From Sulfurospirillum sp. UCH001 (GTDB taxonomy: Bacteria > Campylobacterota > Campylobacteria > Campylobacterales > Sulfurospirillaceae), in the NCBI RefSeq assembly GCF_001548035.1, contig NZ_AP014723.1:434001-498000 (forward strand): a DNA stretch of 64,000 nucleotides, given 5' to 3'. The notes under the pieces are model-generated. The model did not search any database and was not told the DNA's origin. It worked only from the letters and a program-made list of their open reading frames with translations. Shown here one piece after another: positions 1 through 17,378 of the stretch. The stretch's first letter is position 1. Each line of letters opens with the position of its first letter. Position numbers and translations under genes: made by a program.

Positions 1-1161
1 CATCTGCACAAACCCTATGGTATGCTCTTTCGTGATCTTGCCCGTATTTATGTCTATTCGGAAGCCTACTTAAAAGAGTTTGGTTGGGGCGGAGCAGATA
101 CGGGAGCAAATATCAAAAGTGCAGGACCTTATGGGCTTGGACCTTACATTTTGACTGAAGGCATTGTGACAGGAAGAAAACAGACGCCAGAAGTCATTTT
201 AAAAGCTAATCCTTATTATTGGGAAGAGGGCATTCCTAGTATTGAGACGATTACATTTTATACGGAATTAGATACGCAAGAAGCCCTAGAATTGGCTCTT
301 TTTAAAGATGGTGGGCTTGATTTTATGCAAATCCCTTTCAATAAAAAGATAGAGACGATGCTCTCTCCTTATGCGAAATTAATCTCAATGCCTTCAACGA
401 ACAATTTTACGATCTATTTTAATTTACTCAAAAAAGACTCAGCAGTTTCCAAAAAAGAGGTCAGACAAGCACTCAATTGTGTTCTCAATCAAAAAAATTT
501 ACTGGATTTTACCTATAAAAAAGAGGGTGCACTAAACTCAAGTGCACTTGAAGAAAATAGGTGCTTACTTGAGCATGAAGCGATTGAAAAGCTTCTGCGC
601 GGTTTGAAATTGAATGTTGTAACACAAGATTCGCTTCTTTTTTTATGGAAAGGGATTGAATATCAGCTTTCTCATTACGATGTCACCTTTGAGTATAGTA
701 TTACCAACAGCGAAAAAGAGATTTACGATTTGGTACAGCAAAATCATACCCGTGTACAAAATTGGGACATGCTGATACAAGGAACACAAGATTATTATGG
801 AAGGCATCCATGGCCTATTTTTATTCGTTATCAAGAGGGTAATCCTTGGAGTTTTGTGCAAGGTGATGCTTTGATGCAATCGTACATCGAACAATTTTTT
901 CTTGTCGAACAAGATGACCCCAAATTTTTAGAGCTGAGTGCGCTTATTAAAGCGCGTGCGAAAGAGGAGGCGTATATGCTTTTTGTCCCAACTCCCAATG
1001 CCGTTTTTGCAATGAACAAAGAGCTAGTGTTCGAACCACTGGGTATTGGGATGCAGCCTTTTTGGAAAGCTAAGATTACTGATCAGCATTGGTCAATTAG
1101 GGGAGAGAAGCCTTATCCTAAAGAGCTTCAAATTCCTATTTTACCAAAACGGTTGCCTTAA
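1..1161 (+). CDS. ABC-type solute-binding protein, peptide/nickel family (5' end outside window)
   Basis: This is the C-terminal 386 residues of a family 5 (peptide/nickel, NikA/DppA-like) periplasmic binding protein. The frame is open from base 1, so the start lies upstream of the window. It ends in an LPKRLP tail shared with the next gene. By eye it is about two-thirds identical to the following protein along its whole length, including the PYGLGPY, NPWSFV and EPLGIGMQPFWK segments, so the two are tandem duplicates. The next start codon overlaps the last region by two bases from the TAA, which implies one transcript. No permease or ATPase is visible. The ligand cannot be read from sequence; nickel, peptide or another small solute are all possible. 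Family assignment is fairly sure, ligand unknown. Confidence 0.8.
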   Translation, partial: HLHKPYGMLFRDLARIYVYSEAYLKEFGWGGADTGANIKSAGPYGLGPYILTEGIVTGRKQTPEVILKANPYYWEEGIPSIETITFYTELDTQEALELALFKDGGLDFMQIPFNKKIETMLSPYAKLISMPSTNNFTIYFNLLKKDSAVSKKEVRQALNCVLNQKNLLDFTYKKEGALNSSALEENRCLLEHEAIEKLLRGLKLNVVTQDSLLFLWKGIEYQLSHYDVTFEYSITNSEKEIYDLVQQNHTRVQNWDMLIQGTQDYYGRHPWPIFIRYQEGNPWSFVQGDALMQSYIEQFFLVEQDDPKFLELSALIKARAKEEAYMLFVPTPNAVFAMNKELVFEPLGIGMQPFWKAKITDQHWSIRGEKPYPKELQIPILPKRLP

Positions 1162-1162
1162 A

Positions 1163-2758
1163 ATGTTCTGGAAAAAACTACTGCTCATGGGATACATTAG
1201 TTGTGTATGTACCGTGATGGCAAGTGTGGATCAATACCGCGAAGATGACAGTGCGCAAAGAGCATTACACAAGAGAGATCCACGCTCTCATATCAACATT
1301 TTTTTACCTGCGATGCCTTACGTGAGTGTCTCACGTCTTATCAATGAGGGGTTGGTGCGACTTGCAGATAATGAACAAGGTTGGGAATATTCACTCGCAA
1401 CACAGTGTGAGAAAAAAAGTGCCACTATGTATGAATGTGATTTACGCCAAGGGGTTAAATTTCAAGATGGAACAGCCTTTAATGCCGATGCGGTCATCAA
1501 TAATTTTCATTATTTTATGGCTCAGCCAATTAATTACACCGATATTAAAAATCGCCTCAAGGGGGTGACAAAACTCTCTGAGTATAAGATACGTATAGAG
1601 CTTTATAAAGCCTATGGAATGCTCTTTCGCGATCTCGCGCGAATCAATTTCTATACCGAAGCGTATTTGAAAAAATTTGCATGGAGAGGGTCTGCCACAG
1701 GCCCTAACATCGAAGAAGCAGGACCTTATGGCTTAGGGCCTTATGTTTTAGTCGAGGGTGTCATCACAGGGCGAAAGCAGACACCGCAAGTGATTTTAAA
1801 AGCAAATCCTCATTATTGGGAAAAGGGGTACCCCAAAATAGAAACCATTACGCTTTATACCCAACTAGAAACAGATGAAGCGCTTAAAATGATGACAGAG
1901 CATGAGGGTGCACTTGATTTTATGCCGATACCGTTTAATAAAAAAATAGAAACGATGCTCTCACCATACTCAAAATTGGTTGTTTTACCTTCAACCAATA
2001 ACTTTACACTCTACTTCAATCTCATCAAAAAAGACTCGCCTGTATTTGATAAAAAAGTCAGGCAAGCTCTTAACTGTGCGCTTAATCAACACAACCTTTT
2101 AACCTTTACCTATAAACAAGAAGGTTCGCTCAATAAAGAGGCGTTGCAAACACAAGAGTGTCATTTGAGTTCGGATGAGGTTTTTGAAGCACTAAATAAT
2201 AAGCATTTTAAAGTTGTTACACAAGATTCGCTTCTCTTTTTGTGGAAAGGCATTGAGTATCAACTCTCCCATTACAACGTGACTTTACACTATACGACCA
2301 CATCGGATGAGAAGATGGTGTATGATCTTTTGTTGTCTAACAATGATACCGTTCAAGACTGGGATATCTTAAGCCAAAACACGGTGGATTGGTATGGAAG
2401 ACATCCGTGGCTTACATTTTTTAATTATCAAGAGGGAAACCCTTGGAGTTTTGTGCGAGATGATGCTTTGATGCAATCGTACATTTCAGAGTTTTTTGGG
2501 TTAGAACAAAATACCCCAGAATTTAATACCTTGTGTGAAAAGATACGTGAGCGTGCCAAGAAGGAGGCGTATATGCTTTTTGTACCCACCCCTCATAATG
2601 TGTTTGCAATGAACAAAGAGCTTGTGTTTGAGCCACTTGGCATTGGAATGCAGCCCTTTTGGAAGGCGATGATTACAGATCAACACTGGTCTGTGAGAGC
2701 TGAGAAAGGTTATCCTAAAGCGTTACAAATCCCTATTTTACCAAAGCGACTCCCATGA
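1163..2758 (+). CDS. ABC-type solute-binding protein, peptide/nickel family (second tandem copy)
   Basis: A 531-residue family 5 substrate-binding protein. I chose the ATG at 1163 because it begins MFWKKLL followed by a hydrophobic stretch (residues 5-20), a typical export signal. The longer open frame upstream merely runs back through the preceding gene. The motif region around VKFQDGTAFNADAVI (about residues 105-120) is the usual SBP_bac_5 signature. It is a tandem duplicate of the preceding gene. Its stop overlaps the ATG of a sensor histidine kinase by four bases (ATGA), so the three genes form one translationally coupled operon. Binding proteins that travel with a kinase and not a permease often act as sensors; that role is inferred here. 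Ligand unknown. Confidence 0.85.
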   Translation: MFWKKLLLMGYISCVCTVMASVDQYREDDSAQRALHKRDPRSHINIFLPAMPYVSVSRLINEGLVRLADNEQGWEYSLATQCEKKSATMYECDLRQGVKFQDGTAFNADAVINNFHYFMAQPINYTDIKNRLKGVTKLSEYKIRIELYKAYGMLFRDLARINFYTEAYLKKFAWRGSATGPNIEEAGPYGLGPYVLVEGVITGRKQTPQVILKANPHYWEKGYPKIETITLYTQLETDEALKMMTEHEGALDFMPIPFNKKIETMLSPYSKLVVLPSTNNFTLYFNLIKKDSPVFDKKVRQALNCALNQHNLLTFTYKQEGSLNKEALQTQECHLSSDEVFEALNNKHFKVVTQDSLLFLWKGIEYQLSHYNVTLHYTTTSDEKMVYDLLLSNNDTVQDWDILSQNTVDWYGRHPWLTFFNYQEGNPWSFVRDDALMQSYISEFFGLEQNTPEFNTLCEKIRERAKKEAYMLFVPTPHNVFAMNKELVFEPLGIGMQPFWKAMITDQHWSVRAEKGYPKALQIPILPKRLP

Positions 2759-4422
2759 AAAAGATACAGATCAAATACAAACTTTTTTTGTTGTTTAGTT
2801 TTTCGTTTATTGGTATGCTCATTCTTGCTGAGCGCTCATTCAAACTGAGTCAAGAAAATATCAGCAATGCAACAACGATTTTTGAGAATTCTCTCAACAC
2901 CCGACACCTACAAGAGAACTACATTGAGCCGACCAATATGCTACGTGAGATGAGCCTCTCTTTGGTAATGTCGCCCAATGACGATTATCGTAAAACGATT
3001 GAGGTGGATATTGCAGGGCAGATGCAAATTTTAGAAGAGCACTTTAGTAAGCTAGACCAAAAGACATACGATGTCTGGACGCAGTATGCCAAAGCGGTAG
3101 AAAAGACACGAAGTTATCTCAATGCACGTTTTGAAGAGGGTGCATTTGTGAATGTCAATACGGTTGAAAGAGAGCGTTATTATGAACTGCTCAATCGCTT
3201 GAAACAGCTTCAGCATGATGCCGTGAATCAAACCAAGCGAAATTTTGAAGAGATTAAAACCAGTGCGCAAGCCTTAAAGTATGAGATTGCCGTTTTAGTA
3301 TTGTTGCTCTCGGCCGTTGTGTTTGTCGCTGGATTTTTACTCTCCAGTCATATCGTTTCTTCTATTTTAAAACTTCAAGAAGGGCTCAAAGAGTTCTTTG
3401 GTTATTTGGAGACAAAAAATACGCAACCAAAGCCCATTGAGCTTTCAAGCAGGGATGAACTTGAAGATATGGCAAAGCTGCTCAATCGCAATATTGCAAA
3501 AGCATCTGCAAACATCGAGCAAGATATTGTTTTTATTGAAGATGCGATTAGTGTGGTGAATGATCTAAAAGTAGGCAAACTCTCTTCTCGTTTGCATGCA
3601 ACAGCGCAAGCGCACGAGCTTAAACTTCTTAAAGATGTGGTTAATGAGATGATCGATAACCTAGAGTCAAAAATCAATGAAGAGATACTCAAACGTACAG
3701 AACAAGAGAAGCTTCTTATTCAACAAAGTAAATTAGCAAGTATGGGCGAAATGATCGGCAATATTGCCCATCAATGGAGGCAACCTTTGGGTGAAATGAG
3801 TGCCGTTTTGATGAACATTCAGGTGCGTTATGAATTTGGAGATTTTGATGGTGCATTTTTGGTTGAGAGCATTCAACAGTGCAATAAAATCAATGCTTAT
3901 ATGTCTGGAACCATCAGTGATTTTCAAAACTTTTTTAAGCCTTCTAAAGAGAAAGAGGTCTTTGAGATTAGTGAGGCGTGTCAGCGTTCTATTACGATTT
4001 TGCAGGCATCACTTAAGTATCATGGCATTGAGTTTTCATTTGATATTTCTGAGAAAATGGAAGTTTATGGTTATCCCAATGAATTTGCGCAAGCACTTCT
4101 AAATATTCTCTCCAATGCTAAAGATGTTCTAAGCGAGCGCGAAATTAGCAATCCTTTCATACGTTTGTATCTTAAAAAAGGGTACAAATATATCCTCATT
4201 GTAATAGAAGACAATGGTGGCGGAATTTCAAATGAGCATATGGACCGCATTTTTGAGCCATACTTTACTACCAAATATGCAAAGCAAGGAACGGGTATTG
4301 GTCTTTACATGACGAAGATGATTATAGAGAACAATATGGGCGGAATTATCAATGTGAAAAATACAAATTCAGGGGCTCTTTTTACGATTAAATTGCCAAG
4401 TGTTCCAGAACAGAGTGTGTAA
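2755..4422 (+). CDS. membrane sensor histidine kinase
   Basis: A 555-residue inner-membrane kinase. There is a TM segment at about residues 9-25, a periplasmic region of about 150 residues predicted to be mostly helical, a second TM at about 175-198, a HAMP-like linker and coiled region, then the kinase core. The H-box carries the phospho-accepting His339 in NIAHQWRQPL, a variant common in Campylobacterota kinases. The N-box (NILSNAKD), G1 (EDNGGGI) and G2 (GTGIGLYM) ATP-binding motifs are intact, so it should be catalytically competent. It overlaps the upstream solute-binding gene by four bases, which suggests it senses the state of that binding protein or its ligand. No response regulator gene follows; the partner may lie upstream of the window. 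Confidence 0.9.
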   Translation: MKKIQIKYKLFLLFSFSFIGMLILAERSFKLSQENISNATTIFENSLNTRHLQENYIEPTNMLREMSLSLVMSPNDDYRKTIEVDIAGQMQILEEHFSKLDQKTYDVWTQYAKAVEKTRSYLNARFEEGAFVNVNTVERERYYELLNRLKQLQHDAVNQTKRNFEEIKTSAQALKYEIAVLVLLLSAVVFVAGFLLSSHIVSSILKLQEGLKEFFGYLETKNTQPKPIELSSRDELEDMAKLLNRNIAKASANIEQDIVFIEDAISVVNDLKVGKLSSRLHATAQAHELKLLKDVVNEMIDNLESKINEEILKRTEQEKLLIQQSKLASMGEMIGNIAHQWRQPLGEMSAVLMNIQVRYEFGDFDGAFLVESIQQCNKINAYMSGTISDFQNFFKPSKEKEVFEISEACQRSITILQASLKYHGIEFSFDISEKMEVYGYPNEFAQALLNILSNAKDVLSEREISNPFIRLYLKKGYKYILIVIEDNGGGISNEHMDRIFEPYFTTKYAKQGTGIGLYMTKMIIENNMGGIINVKNTNSGALFTIKLPSVPEQSV

Positions 4423-4467: not shown

Positions 4468-5919
4468 TTAAGCTTGTGCGTTTTTCTCCGCAATCATTTT
4501 ATCTAAGGTTACAAAGAGTACTTTACTCTCTTTTTCTACTTCTTTAAAATAGTTTACAATCAATTCTTTTTCATCTAACAGATTTGATGAGGTAGAACGA
4601 ATGAGTTTGGCAACCTCAAGTACATGACTATGGAAGCTTTCATGTGGTTTATAGAGCTCTTTAAAGCCTTGAGTATCGCCAAAGATTTTCTGACCATCTT
4701 TTTGGTACCACTCTCCAAGACTGCATGTTTCATGGGTTTGGAATGCTGCTTCTTTGTCGTTTACATAAACCGCGCTATACGCATTTGATTTAAAGATAGC
4801 ATGATTCATCTTCGCGAGTGTGATAAAGATTGTTTGCTGAATGGTATTGATATTATTTGAAGTTGTATTAGAATGTTCAATCAGGCTATTAAAGGTAGTG
4901 CTGAGTTTATCAAGTGTAGTGGTTGAAGCATCAGCATTTTCTTTCATCGCATCAGCGTTGGTCTCAAGTCCTGAGGTCTCTTGCTGAAGCATTTTAATCG
5001 AAATAGCAATTTCAGCGGTTGCTTTTTGGGTTGTTTCAGCCAGTTTTCGTACTTCATCAGCAACAACGGCAAAACCACGTCCATGCTCACCTGCACGTGC
5101 AGCTTCAATAGCGGCATTAAGGGCTAAAAGATTTGTTTTATCGGCAATGTCATTAATCATATCAACTACATTGCTAATGTCACGTGTACGTTGTGCAAGT
5201 ACACCAATGCTTTGCTCATTTTGATTCACGAACTCAACGAGTGACGTAATCTTATTGATGGTGTCACGTAAATTTTGGTAGCTTCCTTTTGTCTCTTCCG
5301 CATAGATTTCGCCATCATGCGCGATCTCTTTAAGGCGCTCAACAATGGTTGTAAGATTGGCTTGGACTGTTGTAAAGTCATTAGAGCCACTGCTAATTTG
5401 TGCTAGTTCTGCATTGAGGGTATTACGTGCGATAAACTCATGCGTTTGTTTCATAGCGTTGACCGATTTGTTGACCATTTCGGTTTGCTCTTTAAACTCA
5501 CCGTGCATACCTTTTTGAAGAATTTTACGGCTAAAATCTTCTTTGGATGCAGCAAAAATAGTTGATTTAATCTCTTTTGTAACCAGTTCAAAATTGTCTA
5601 AAAGGGAGTTCATATTAGAGCAGAGTAGTTTGAGTTCTCCTCCATCATTGACATTGACAATACGGCCGTGTAAATTACCATGTTCACTCTCTTTAACAAT
5701 GTCAGCAAGTGCATGAATCGTTTTTTGAACTTTTCGGATATTGATAAACATAAACCAAGCGAGTGCAAAGTTTGTTAAGTTGATGATTTGAATCCAGTGA
5801 AAGCCATTATATGAGACTTCAAGAATGAAGGCAAACGTAAATGCAACGAGAGAGATAATATTGGCATCTTGCACTTTTGCAAGAGAAGATCTATTCATGA
5901 GAGAGGATGAAGGCATCAT
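4468..5919 (-). CDS. methyl-accepting chemotaxis protein, CetA-like, with C-terminal zinc-binding (CZB) domain
   Basis: A 483-residue chemoreceptor with two closely spaced TM segments (about residues 21-37 and 42-60) and almost no periplasmic domain, so it cannot bind an external ligand directly. A HAMP-like region is followed by the classical hairpin tip around [20 protein letters not shown]. The C-terminus (about 375-470) has the CZB pattern: a His in MNHAIFK, CSLGEWY, and HESFHSHV, the expected zinc ligands. ATG at 5919 has an AAAGG ribosome site six bases away. It overlaps the upstream PAS gene by 29 bp. The pairing matches the Campylobacter CetA/CetB energy-taxis receptor, where the PAS partner senses redox through FAD. 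The CetA assignment rests on architecture and context. Confidence 0.85.
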
Positions 5920-6397
5920 AACTGACCTTTAATTGAGATAGGGTGTTATCTAAAAGAGCTGTGGATGCTTGTATGCCACCTTGCTCTTCTGCTTGAAGCA
6001 TTTTCTTATATAAAGGGGCAATCACTTCGATACCTTTTGCACTTGGTGAACGACGAACAGAGTGATACCCAATAAGTTGTTGAGTTTTTGTGTCAACAAT
6101 AGGGGTAATATAGGCATGTACCCAGTAATATTTATTGTTTTTCGTTTTATTTTTAACGTAGGCAAAAACCTCTTTACCTGCTTGAACGCGATCCCATAAA
6201 AGTTTAAAAATAGCTCTTGGCATATCAGGGTGGCGTAGGATATTGTGAGGTGTTCCGATGAGCTCTTGCTCTTTAAAACCAGAAATTTGGATGAAAAGAT
6301 CATTCGCGTAGGTAATTCTGCCTTTAAGGTCTGTTTTTGAGACGATAAATTGGTTCTCGTCAAAGTGAAGTTCTTCACCTTTTTGGGTAATGGACAC
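5891..6397 (-). CDS. PAS-domain redox sensor, Aer/CetB-like
   Basis: A 168-residue cytoplasmic protein made of a single PAS domain (about residues 15-125) of the Aer type, including [11 protein letters not shown] and the characteristic [10 protein letters not shown] stretch, and a short helical tail. In Aer and CetB this domain binds FAD and reports the redox state of the respiratory chain. Here FAD binding is inferred from the motif. The start is GTG at 6397, preceded by AGGAG at eight bases. The downstream chemoreceptor lacks a sensory domain and overlaps this gene, so the two very probably form a bipartite energy-taxis receptor. Confidence 0.85.
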
Positions 6398-16139: not shown

Positions 16140-17378
16140 AAGTAACGCTTCAAATTCTTCAGGAAATTTCTTCAAATAACTCTGCGCGATAAAAGCCACA
16201 GAAGGTGCAAAAACGCAGATGGTTTTACCATTGAGCATATCGCAGGCATCAAGGATGGTTTGGTAGTCTTCTTTATTTCCTCTGCCTGCTAAAATCTTAG
16301 CTAAGATATGATCAACCCAGCCTGTACCTTCCCGACATGGGGTACATTGACCGCAAGATTCATGGTGGTAAAACTCAAAGAGGTTTTTCATCACTTCGGG
16401 AATAGAAACAGTTTCATCCATGACGATCATACCACCCGTTCCAAGGGCGGAACCATGTGCTTTGAGGCTTTCGTAGTCCAGTGTGATATCTTCGATCTCA
16501 TCAGCTCTTAGTATTTGCACCGATGAACCACCGGGAATAATGGCTTTGAGTTTTTTGCCATCTTTAATACCGCCGCAAAGGTCGTAAATAACCTCTTTCA
16601 TAGACGTTCCATAAGGCAGTTCATAAACTCCTGGTTGCTCCACATGCCCACTGATACCAAAAAGCATCGTACCAGGAGACTCTTTCGTACCATACATTTG
16701 GTAAGCGCCATACCCTTCATTGATGATGTAAGGAACACTGGCGATGGTCTCAACATTGTTCACCACCGTTGGATTACCAAAAAACCACTCAGGCTCTTTG
16801 CCTTTAGGCTTCAGTCTTGGATGCCCTCGTTTGCCCTCTAAAGATTCTAAAAGAGCGGTTTTCTCACCGCAGATGTACGCACCTGCTCCTTTGTGAACGG
16901 TGATATCTAAAGCATACTCATGTCCTAAAATACTTTTCCCTAAAATGCCTGCTGCATAAGCTTCATCAATAGCATGTTGCAAACGGTTCATCCAAAAGAC
17001 ATACTCACCGCGAATGTAGACATACGCATGGTGCGCGCCAATGGCGTAGGAAGAACAGATGATACCCTCAATGAGTAAATGCGGGTCAAACTCCAAAATC
17101 TGACGGTCTTTAAAGGTTCCTGGTTCTCCCTCATCGGCATTGATAACAAGGTAAACAGGTTTAGTGTTGTTTTTAGGGATAAGTCGCCACTTCTCTCCTG
17201 TGTGTGCCCCACCTCCGCCTTTGCCTCGAAGTCCGCTTTTTTCAACTTCACTGGTGACTTCATCGGGGCTCATAGAAAAGAGTTTTTCTAAAGAAGCATA
17301 TCTACCATTTTCTCTCGCTACTGGCAGAGTATAGGCTTCTGGTATATCAAAGTTTTTACTGACCAGTTTAACGACCAT
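16134..17378 (-). CDS. nuoF: NADH-quinone oxidoreductase subunit F
   Basis: The NADH-oxidising subunit of complex I, 414 residues. NADEGEPGTFKDR (NADH/FMN site) and the [4Fe-4S] N3 motif CGQCTPC with a later Cys in KTIC are intact. The glycine-rich FMN loop reads GLRGKGGGGAHTGEKW, where most homologues have GGAGFPTG or GGAGFSTG. After the last cluster cysteine the usual ALGDAAA is VFAPSVA. Presence of NuoE/NuoF sets this complex apart from the Campylobacter and Helicobacter versions, which lack them. Start overlaps the nuoE end by 11 bp. Last gene of the minus-strand operon. Confidence 0.95.
   Translation of the reverse strand: MVVKLVSKNFDIPEAYTLPVARENGRYASLEKLFSMSPDEVTSEVEKSGLRGKGGGGAHTGEKWRLIPKNNTKPVYLVINADEGEPGTFKDRQILEFDPHLLIEGIICSSYAIGAHHAYVYIRGEYVFWMNRLQHAIDEAYAAGILGKSILGHEYALDITVHKGAGAYICGEKTALLESLEGKRGHPRLKPKGKEPEWFFGNPTVVNNVETIASVPYIINEGYGAYQMYGTKESPGTMLFGISGHVEQPGVYELPYGTSMKEVIYDLCGGIKDGKKLKAIIPGGSSVQILRADEIEDITLDYESLKAHGSALGTGGMIVMDETVSIPEVMKNLFEFYHHESCGQCTPCREGTGWVDHILAKILAGRGNKEDYQTILDACDMLNGKTICVFAPSVAFIAQSYLKKFPEEFEALLK

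Follow-up and report, generated by a model that had tools for sequence, protein, structure and literature searches.

Family 5 binding proteins as probable co-receptors of a sensor kinase beside a TorA-like reductase in Sulfurospirillum sp. UCH001

Introduction

The TorT/TorS/TorR system of Escherichia coli combines a periplasmic binding protein, a kinase with an all-helical periplasmic domain and an OmpR-type regulator beside torC and torA, and direct repeats, the tor boxes, precede the tor operon. TorT belongs to the Peripla_BP_1 family, and TorS is a hybrid kinase with a PF21689 sensor, a REC domain and an Hpt domain. In arsenic metabolism, AioX/AioS/AioR and ArrX/ArrS/ArrR also place a binding protein, a kinase and a regulator next to a molybdo-enzyme, and their binding proteins are PhnD-type, a family other than SBP_5. 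The TorS sensor domain belongs to an all-helical fold class (PMC8534201). In Vibrio, the family 5 solute-binding protein (SBP) CBP controls the sensor kinase ChiS (PMC10667598, PMC7564644); CBP also serves uptake, ChiS binds DNA itself, and the target of ChiS is chitin use rather than respiration.

The locus of Sulfurospirillum sp. UCH001 described here shares with the tor system the binding protein, the kinase with an all-helical periplasmic domain, the OmpR-type regulator beside torC- and torA-like genes, and a direct-repeat box, and as CBP acts on ChiS, a family 5 (cluster C) binding protein would act here on a membrane sensor kinase. However, its binding proteins, SBP1 and SBP2, belong to SBP_bac_5 instead of the TorT family and gave no BLAST match to TorT, and its kinase is plain, has a shorter helical domain and does not match PF21689. 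Thus, an OmpR-type regulator and linked torC/torA are present but neither the TorT family nor the TorS sensor and relay is, and because these are the two defining families we do not class the UCH001 system as a TorTSR member. NikA and DppA have the same fold as SBP2 at about 25% sequence identity, but the UCH001 locus has no permease or ATPase genes.

A family 5 SBP acting on a sensor kinase has a known precedent, and what is apparently new is the pairing with a respiratory reductase in Campylobacteria. Our search of open-licence papers found no description of a set of response regulator (RR), SBP and histidine kinase (HK) with a respiratory reductase in this class, and a term search of a 2019 review on how respiration is regulated in Campylobacterota turned up no regulator of TorA-type reductases apart from effects of CsrA in C. 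jejuni (PMC6682613). We consider it likely that the SBP_5 proteins are periplasmic co-receptors in a TorT/TorS/TorR-like electron-acceptor sensor, assembled from non-homologous parts, that controls the neighbouring reductase.

Results

Gene content of the locus

The window, by which we mean the whole 64,000-nucleotide stretch analysed, is C1:434001-498000 of the complete 2.6 Mb genome, and close relatives of the strain include Sulfurospirillum species. It opens with the 3′ part of SBP1 (positions 1-1161, + strand); the whole SBP1 gene, C1:433575-435161, has a TTG start, encodes 528 aa and extends 426 bases ahead of the window. SBP2 follows at 1163-2758 (+), a protein of 531 aa with a signal-peptide-like N-terminal helix and a predicted SBP_5 (cluster C) fold, and then a sensor histidine kinase of 555 aa at 2755-4422 (+), consisting of TM1, a periplasmic four-helix domain (about residues 30-178), TM2, a HAMP-like linker, a DHp domain with H339 and HATPase_c. 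SBP1 and SBP2 are 66% identical and match the Pfam family SBP_bac_5 with 57.7 and 116.6 bits, respectively (gathering cut-off 32.4 bits), while the kinase matches HATPase_c with 62.8 bits and HAMP and 4HB_MCP_1 weakly. The kinase motifs are H339 in GNIAHQWRQPL, the N box NILSNAKD, EDNGGGI, FEPYFTTK and GTGIGLY, and across 20 homologues the catalytic motifs are nearly all invariant. With these domains, motifs and this identity, two similar family 5 binding proteins and an intact kinase are found as the preliminary description had them. Its single overlapping operon holds for SBP2 and HK, which overlap in ATGA, but not for SBP1 and SBP2, which the sequence separates by a 1-base gap.

The 4 kb 5′ of the window encode, on the same strand, a TorA-like molybdo-reductase, a TorC-like cytochrome and an OmpR-type response regulator, which gives the gene order torA-torC / RR-SBP-SBP-HK. 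With TIGR00509 (bisC_fam, cut-off 1017.55 bits), the neighbouring S/N-oxide reductases score 1028.6 bits, for the torA-like gene upstream, and 1036.3 bits, both above the cut-off; with the TorA equivalog model TIGR02164 the reductase scores below the model's cut-off. The cytochrome resembles the C-terminal part of TorC and has one CXXCH haem motif. The regulator has REC and Trans_reg_C domains, and in relatives its reading frame is intact.

On the other side of the kinase gene, window positions 4468-6397 (- strand) encode a CZB zinc domain-containing MCP signalling protein, whose gene overlaps that of a separate PAS protein. We take this pair to resemble the CetA/CetB energy taxis proteins of Campylobacter, and the MCP gene adjoins the kinase gene in most relatives in the genus.

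Transport genes and class-wide context

That no transporter genes are visible, as noted earlier, extends beyond the first genes: permease and ATPase genes are absent both from the first 9 kb of the window and from the 14 kb that precede it. A search upstream for a nikBCDE or dppBCDF set found none, and the RR, the TorC-like cytochrome and the TorA-like reductase lie there instead. The locus therefore has the SBP_bac_5 domain of an Opp/Dpp/Nik importer and lacks the permease and ATPase in the same locus. The oligo_HPY ATPase domain, a mark of Opp/Dpp/Nik transporters, was not found in the whole genome. A lone OppB/NikB-like permease lies at C1:505303-505914, about 67 kb past the kinase gene, and a fifth SBP_5, the most typical one in the genome (268.5 bits), lies at C1:2128498, away from the RR-SBP-HK modules.

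Two more RR-SBP-HK modules are present at C1:834.7-844.3k, and both adjoin molybdo-reductases: one follows a DmsAB-like operon with a TorD-like chaperone, and the other precedes torC-torA. Across the class Campylobacteria, the SBP occurs in 28 of 347 genomes and 13 of 63 genera. When the kinase sensor domain was searched alone, it was found in 32 of 347 genomes, namely all 28 with the SBP and four without it. Close to the 61 SBP ORFs or fragments of the family, which come from 51 loci with a few loci counted twice, we find an RR at 56, an HK at 58, a reductase at 54 and a permease at none. Those cases without an RR, HK or reductase neighbour that we inspected are mostly explained by contig ends, by fragments and by the interruption of one gene pair. 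By contrast, distant SBP_5 relatives (22-31% identity) have a permease at 49 of 59 loci and an HK, RR or reductase at 0 of 59. The RR-SBP-HK set is constant across the family's loci and the partner reductase varies, being torA-like, DmsAB-like or DmsABC with the DmsC anchor. In L019/L144 (G010), the SBP1 gene is split by about 7.5 kb of other DNA, with one part on each side; the interruption is possibly an insertion element.

These counts bear on whether the SBPs simply serve ordinary uptake, feeding a distant permease such as that at C1:505303 while the kinase and RR merely regulate them or share their operon. SBP_5 proteins are mostly transport subunits, as the distant relatives illustrate, and the genome does contain one OppB/NikB-like permease. 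However, with no permease near any of the 61 family SBPs and no oligo_HPY ATPase in the genome, and with the more typical SBP_5 at C1:2128498 able to serve the lone permease, we regard this explanation as most improbable. A dual role, in which the SBPs supply a distant permease with ligand as well as signalling via the kinase, as CBP does with chitin oligosaccharides and ChiS, has that precedent and an unassigned permease in its favor, but it too appears very unlikely, since no transporter gene is conserved nearby in any genome examined and the neighbouring reductase is Tat-exported and presumably periplasmic, so that its substrate need not be taken up. With an RR and torC/torA upstream and the triad conserved across the class free of permeases, the earlier suggestion of a sensor, not a transporter, as the partner of the binding proteins is strengthened.

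In a tree, SBP1-type and SBP2-type proteins form separate clades with several species each, the SBP2 clade being strongly supported, and by this measure the duplication predates the species compared. Some genomes keep both copies, S. cavolei has only the SBP1-type and S. diekertiae only the SBP2-type. Since the species with one copy keep the same kind of kinase, either copy seems to suffice for it. The duplication possibly broadens the ligand range.

Direct-repeat box and response regulator

Alignment of torA upstream regions revealed a conserved 11-bp direct repeat, CTCATTAATTA-CTCATTTTTTT-TCGTTA. Allowing up to 2 mismatches, the box CTCATTNNNNNCTCATTTTNNNTCGNTA has exactly two sites in the 2.6 Mb genome, one lying 126 bp ahead of torA and the other 94 bp ahead of RR, and its reversed control has 0 matches in the genome at the same threshold. 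With up to 1 mismatch, the box is found in 16 of 24 genomes of the genus and the reversed control in 0, and most of these matches lie about 4 kb 5′ of the SBP gene, which is the position expected of torA promoters. Direct repeats of such spacing suit OmpR/PhoB-type regulators, and we infer that the box is the binding site of the RR. In the c-type module, GCCATTTTT-type repeats, seen by eye only, stand before RR_c and torC_c (L015:12200-12336 and 16288-16402). They differ from the CTCATT box, which suggests that each regulator has its own box. For the b-type module, no clear box is common to the dms-like and RR promoters.

In UCH001 itself, the RR gene (C1:432891-433585, L014:12891-13585) carries a one-base deletion beside an A run in A/T-rich sequence at about L014:13337, near C1:433337. 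The site reads GATTTTAA-AAC and is one base shorter than in all eight aligned relatives. As a result, the receiver ORF stops and the DNA-binding domain is split off, with Trans_reg_C (53.6 bits) recognizable in another frame after the stop. The frameshift may be a real mutation or a sequencing error. Programmed frameshifting is not favored because no canonical slippery heptamer is seen by eye. The regulator copy of this strain may therefore be broken.

It is accordingly possible, though we doubt it, that the UCH001 copy alone is a decaying remnant in which torA has escaped control by the SBPs and kinase. The deletion set against eight relatives and the lack of a slippery site by eye speak for decay; but SBP1, SBP2, HK, torA, torC and both boxes are intact, and sequencing errors commonly take this form too, with one base missing next to a run of A. 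Decay of this one copy would be compatible with a co-receptor role of the SBPs.

Predicted structures and binding pocket

The SBP2 model (pLDDT 77, from 28 sequences) matches cluster-C binding proteins in a fold search, namely AapF (Z 26.4, rmsd 3.4, 431 aligned), NikA (Z about 25.0, rmsd 3.7, 439 aligned) and DppA (Z 23.8, rmsd 4.2, 426 aligned), and in a sequence comparison of SBP2 with the PDB, Vibrio CBP ranks third. When the pocket is compared with those of NikA and DppA, as had been proposed, binding of nickel or dipeptide finds no support, as NikA R137 and H416 and DppA R355 are not kept in the sequence alignment; the mapping of the pocket is weak in the C-terminal half, since the hhalign alignment covers only about residues 69-349 of SBP2. 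The NCBIfam nikA model TIGR02294 gives 65.7 bits, below its cut-off of 393. Nickel or dipeptide uptake by homology was rejected, as neither the pocket residues nor the gene context (permease 0/61) fits it. Asp409 is invariant in the four paralogues, and MAFFT places D409 one column off DppA D408, the residue that binds the peptide amino end.

The kinase model has a pTM of 0.41, and its periplasmic part is all-helical and mostly at pLDDT 77-93. From helix order only, we tentatively place the turn at 73-75 as well as the breaks at 124-126 and 136 at the membrane-distal end. In a fold search with the full kinase model, the matches listed were all to the catalytic domain.

Kinases without a binding protein

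Five kinases lie in loci without an SBP (L184-L188); the one in L188 belongs to genome G026, where another locus carries an SBP-linked kinase. Four of the five (L184, L185, L186 and L188) belong to torA-torC-RR-HK gene sets, and L187 does so in part, so the kinase fold can work without an SBP co-receptor. Phe126 is present in 47 of 47 SBP-linked kinases versus 0 of 5 SBP-less ones, and E128 in 47 of 47 versus 1 of 5, where the 47 include near-identical rows and the motif losses amount to few events, 3-4 independent ones. F126 was picked post hoc from 18 periplasmic positions at least 90% conserved in the 47. R64, N75, W108, Y111 and Q153 are present in all five SBP-less kinases. A tree built from only the cytoplasmic half of the kinases forces four changes between SBP-linked and SBP-less, from which it follows that the SBP was lost at least three times independently. 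In the sensor domain of the L186 and L188 kinases, 13 residues are inserted immediately ahead of the F126/E128 region.

The simplest reading of the motif loss points to contact between the SBP and the kinase patch F126-E-E-G-A-F131 (codons at 3130-3147, +), a motif that SBP-linked kinases retain and SBP-less ones have lost. Alternatively, the kinase could sense the acceptor directly, with the SBP an accessory scavenger or negative regulator that is dispensable for sensing. The SBP-less torA-torC-RR-HK sets fit this, as does the description of CBP as a negative control of chitin signalling; yet the loss of F126 in 5 of 5 and of E128 in 4 of 5 SBP-less kinases suggests that SBP contact matters where the SBP is present, and the sensor domain is found in every genome that has the SBP. 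We therefore think direct sensing unlikely and retain the SBPs as co-receptors.

Discussion

Around our direct results (gene content, conservation, box, fold class and motif correlation), a scheme can be drawn whose ligand, docking site, direction of signalling and RR-DNA binding are put conditionally. In the periplasm, SBP1 and SBP2 would have an S- or N-oxide or some similar respiratory substrate as their ligand, and the ligand-bound SBP would dock on the membrane-distal tip of the kinase four-helix domain, at about residues 126-131. The kinase would then phosphorylate the OmpR-type RR encoded just upstream, which would bind the 11-bp direct-repeat box found upstream of both torA and the RR operon itself; the TorA/TorC-like reductase and the sensor genes would thereby be induced together.

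For TMAO or DMSO the pocket of SBP_5 proteins is large, and SBP1 and SBP2 may therefore bind another ligand. One quite unlikely proposal is that the SBP_5 co-receptors sense bulkier S-oxides (methionine sulfoxide or peptides carrying it) and not TMAO or DMSO, because a peptide-binding fold suits such ligands and Asp409 lies near DppA Asp408. If it were true, Campylobacteria would sense and respire oxidised methionine by means of a peptide-type receptor.

Whatever the ligand, SBP_5 proteins acting as co-receptors would provide a candidate regulator for TorA-type reductases in 13 of the 63 genera examined, and would suggest that TMAO-type sensing has evolved twice from unrelated families of binding proteins. 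The short motif lost in SBP-less kinases gives a prediction of the binding protein-kinase contact site that can be mutated. SBPs that are likely annotated as subunits of nickel or peptide transport would, the data suggest, be sensors.
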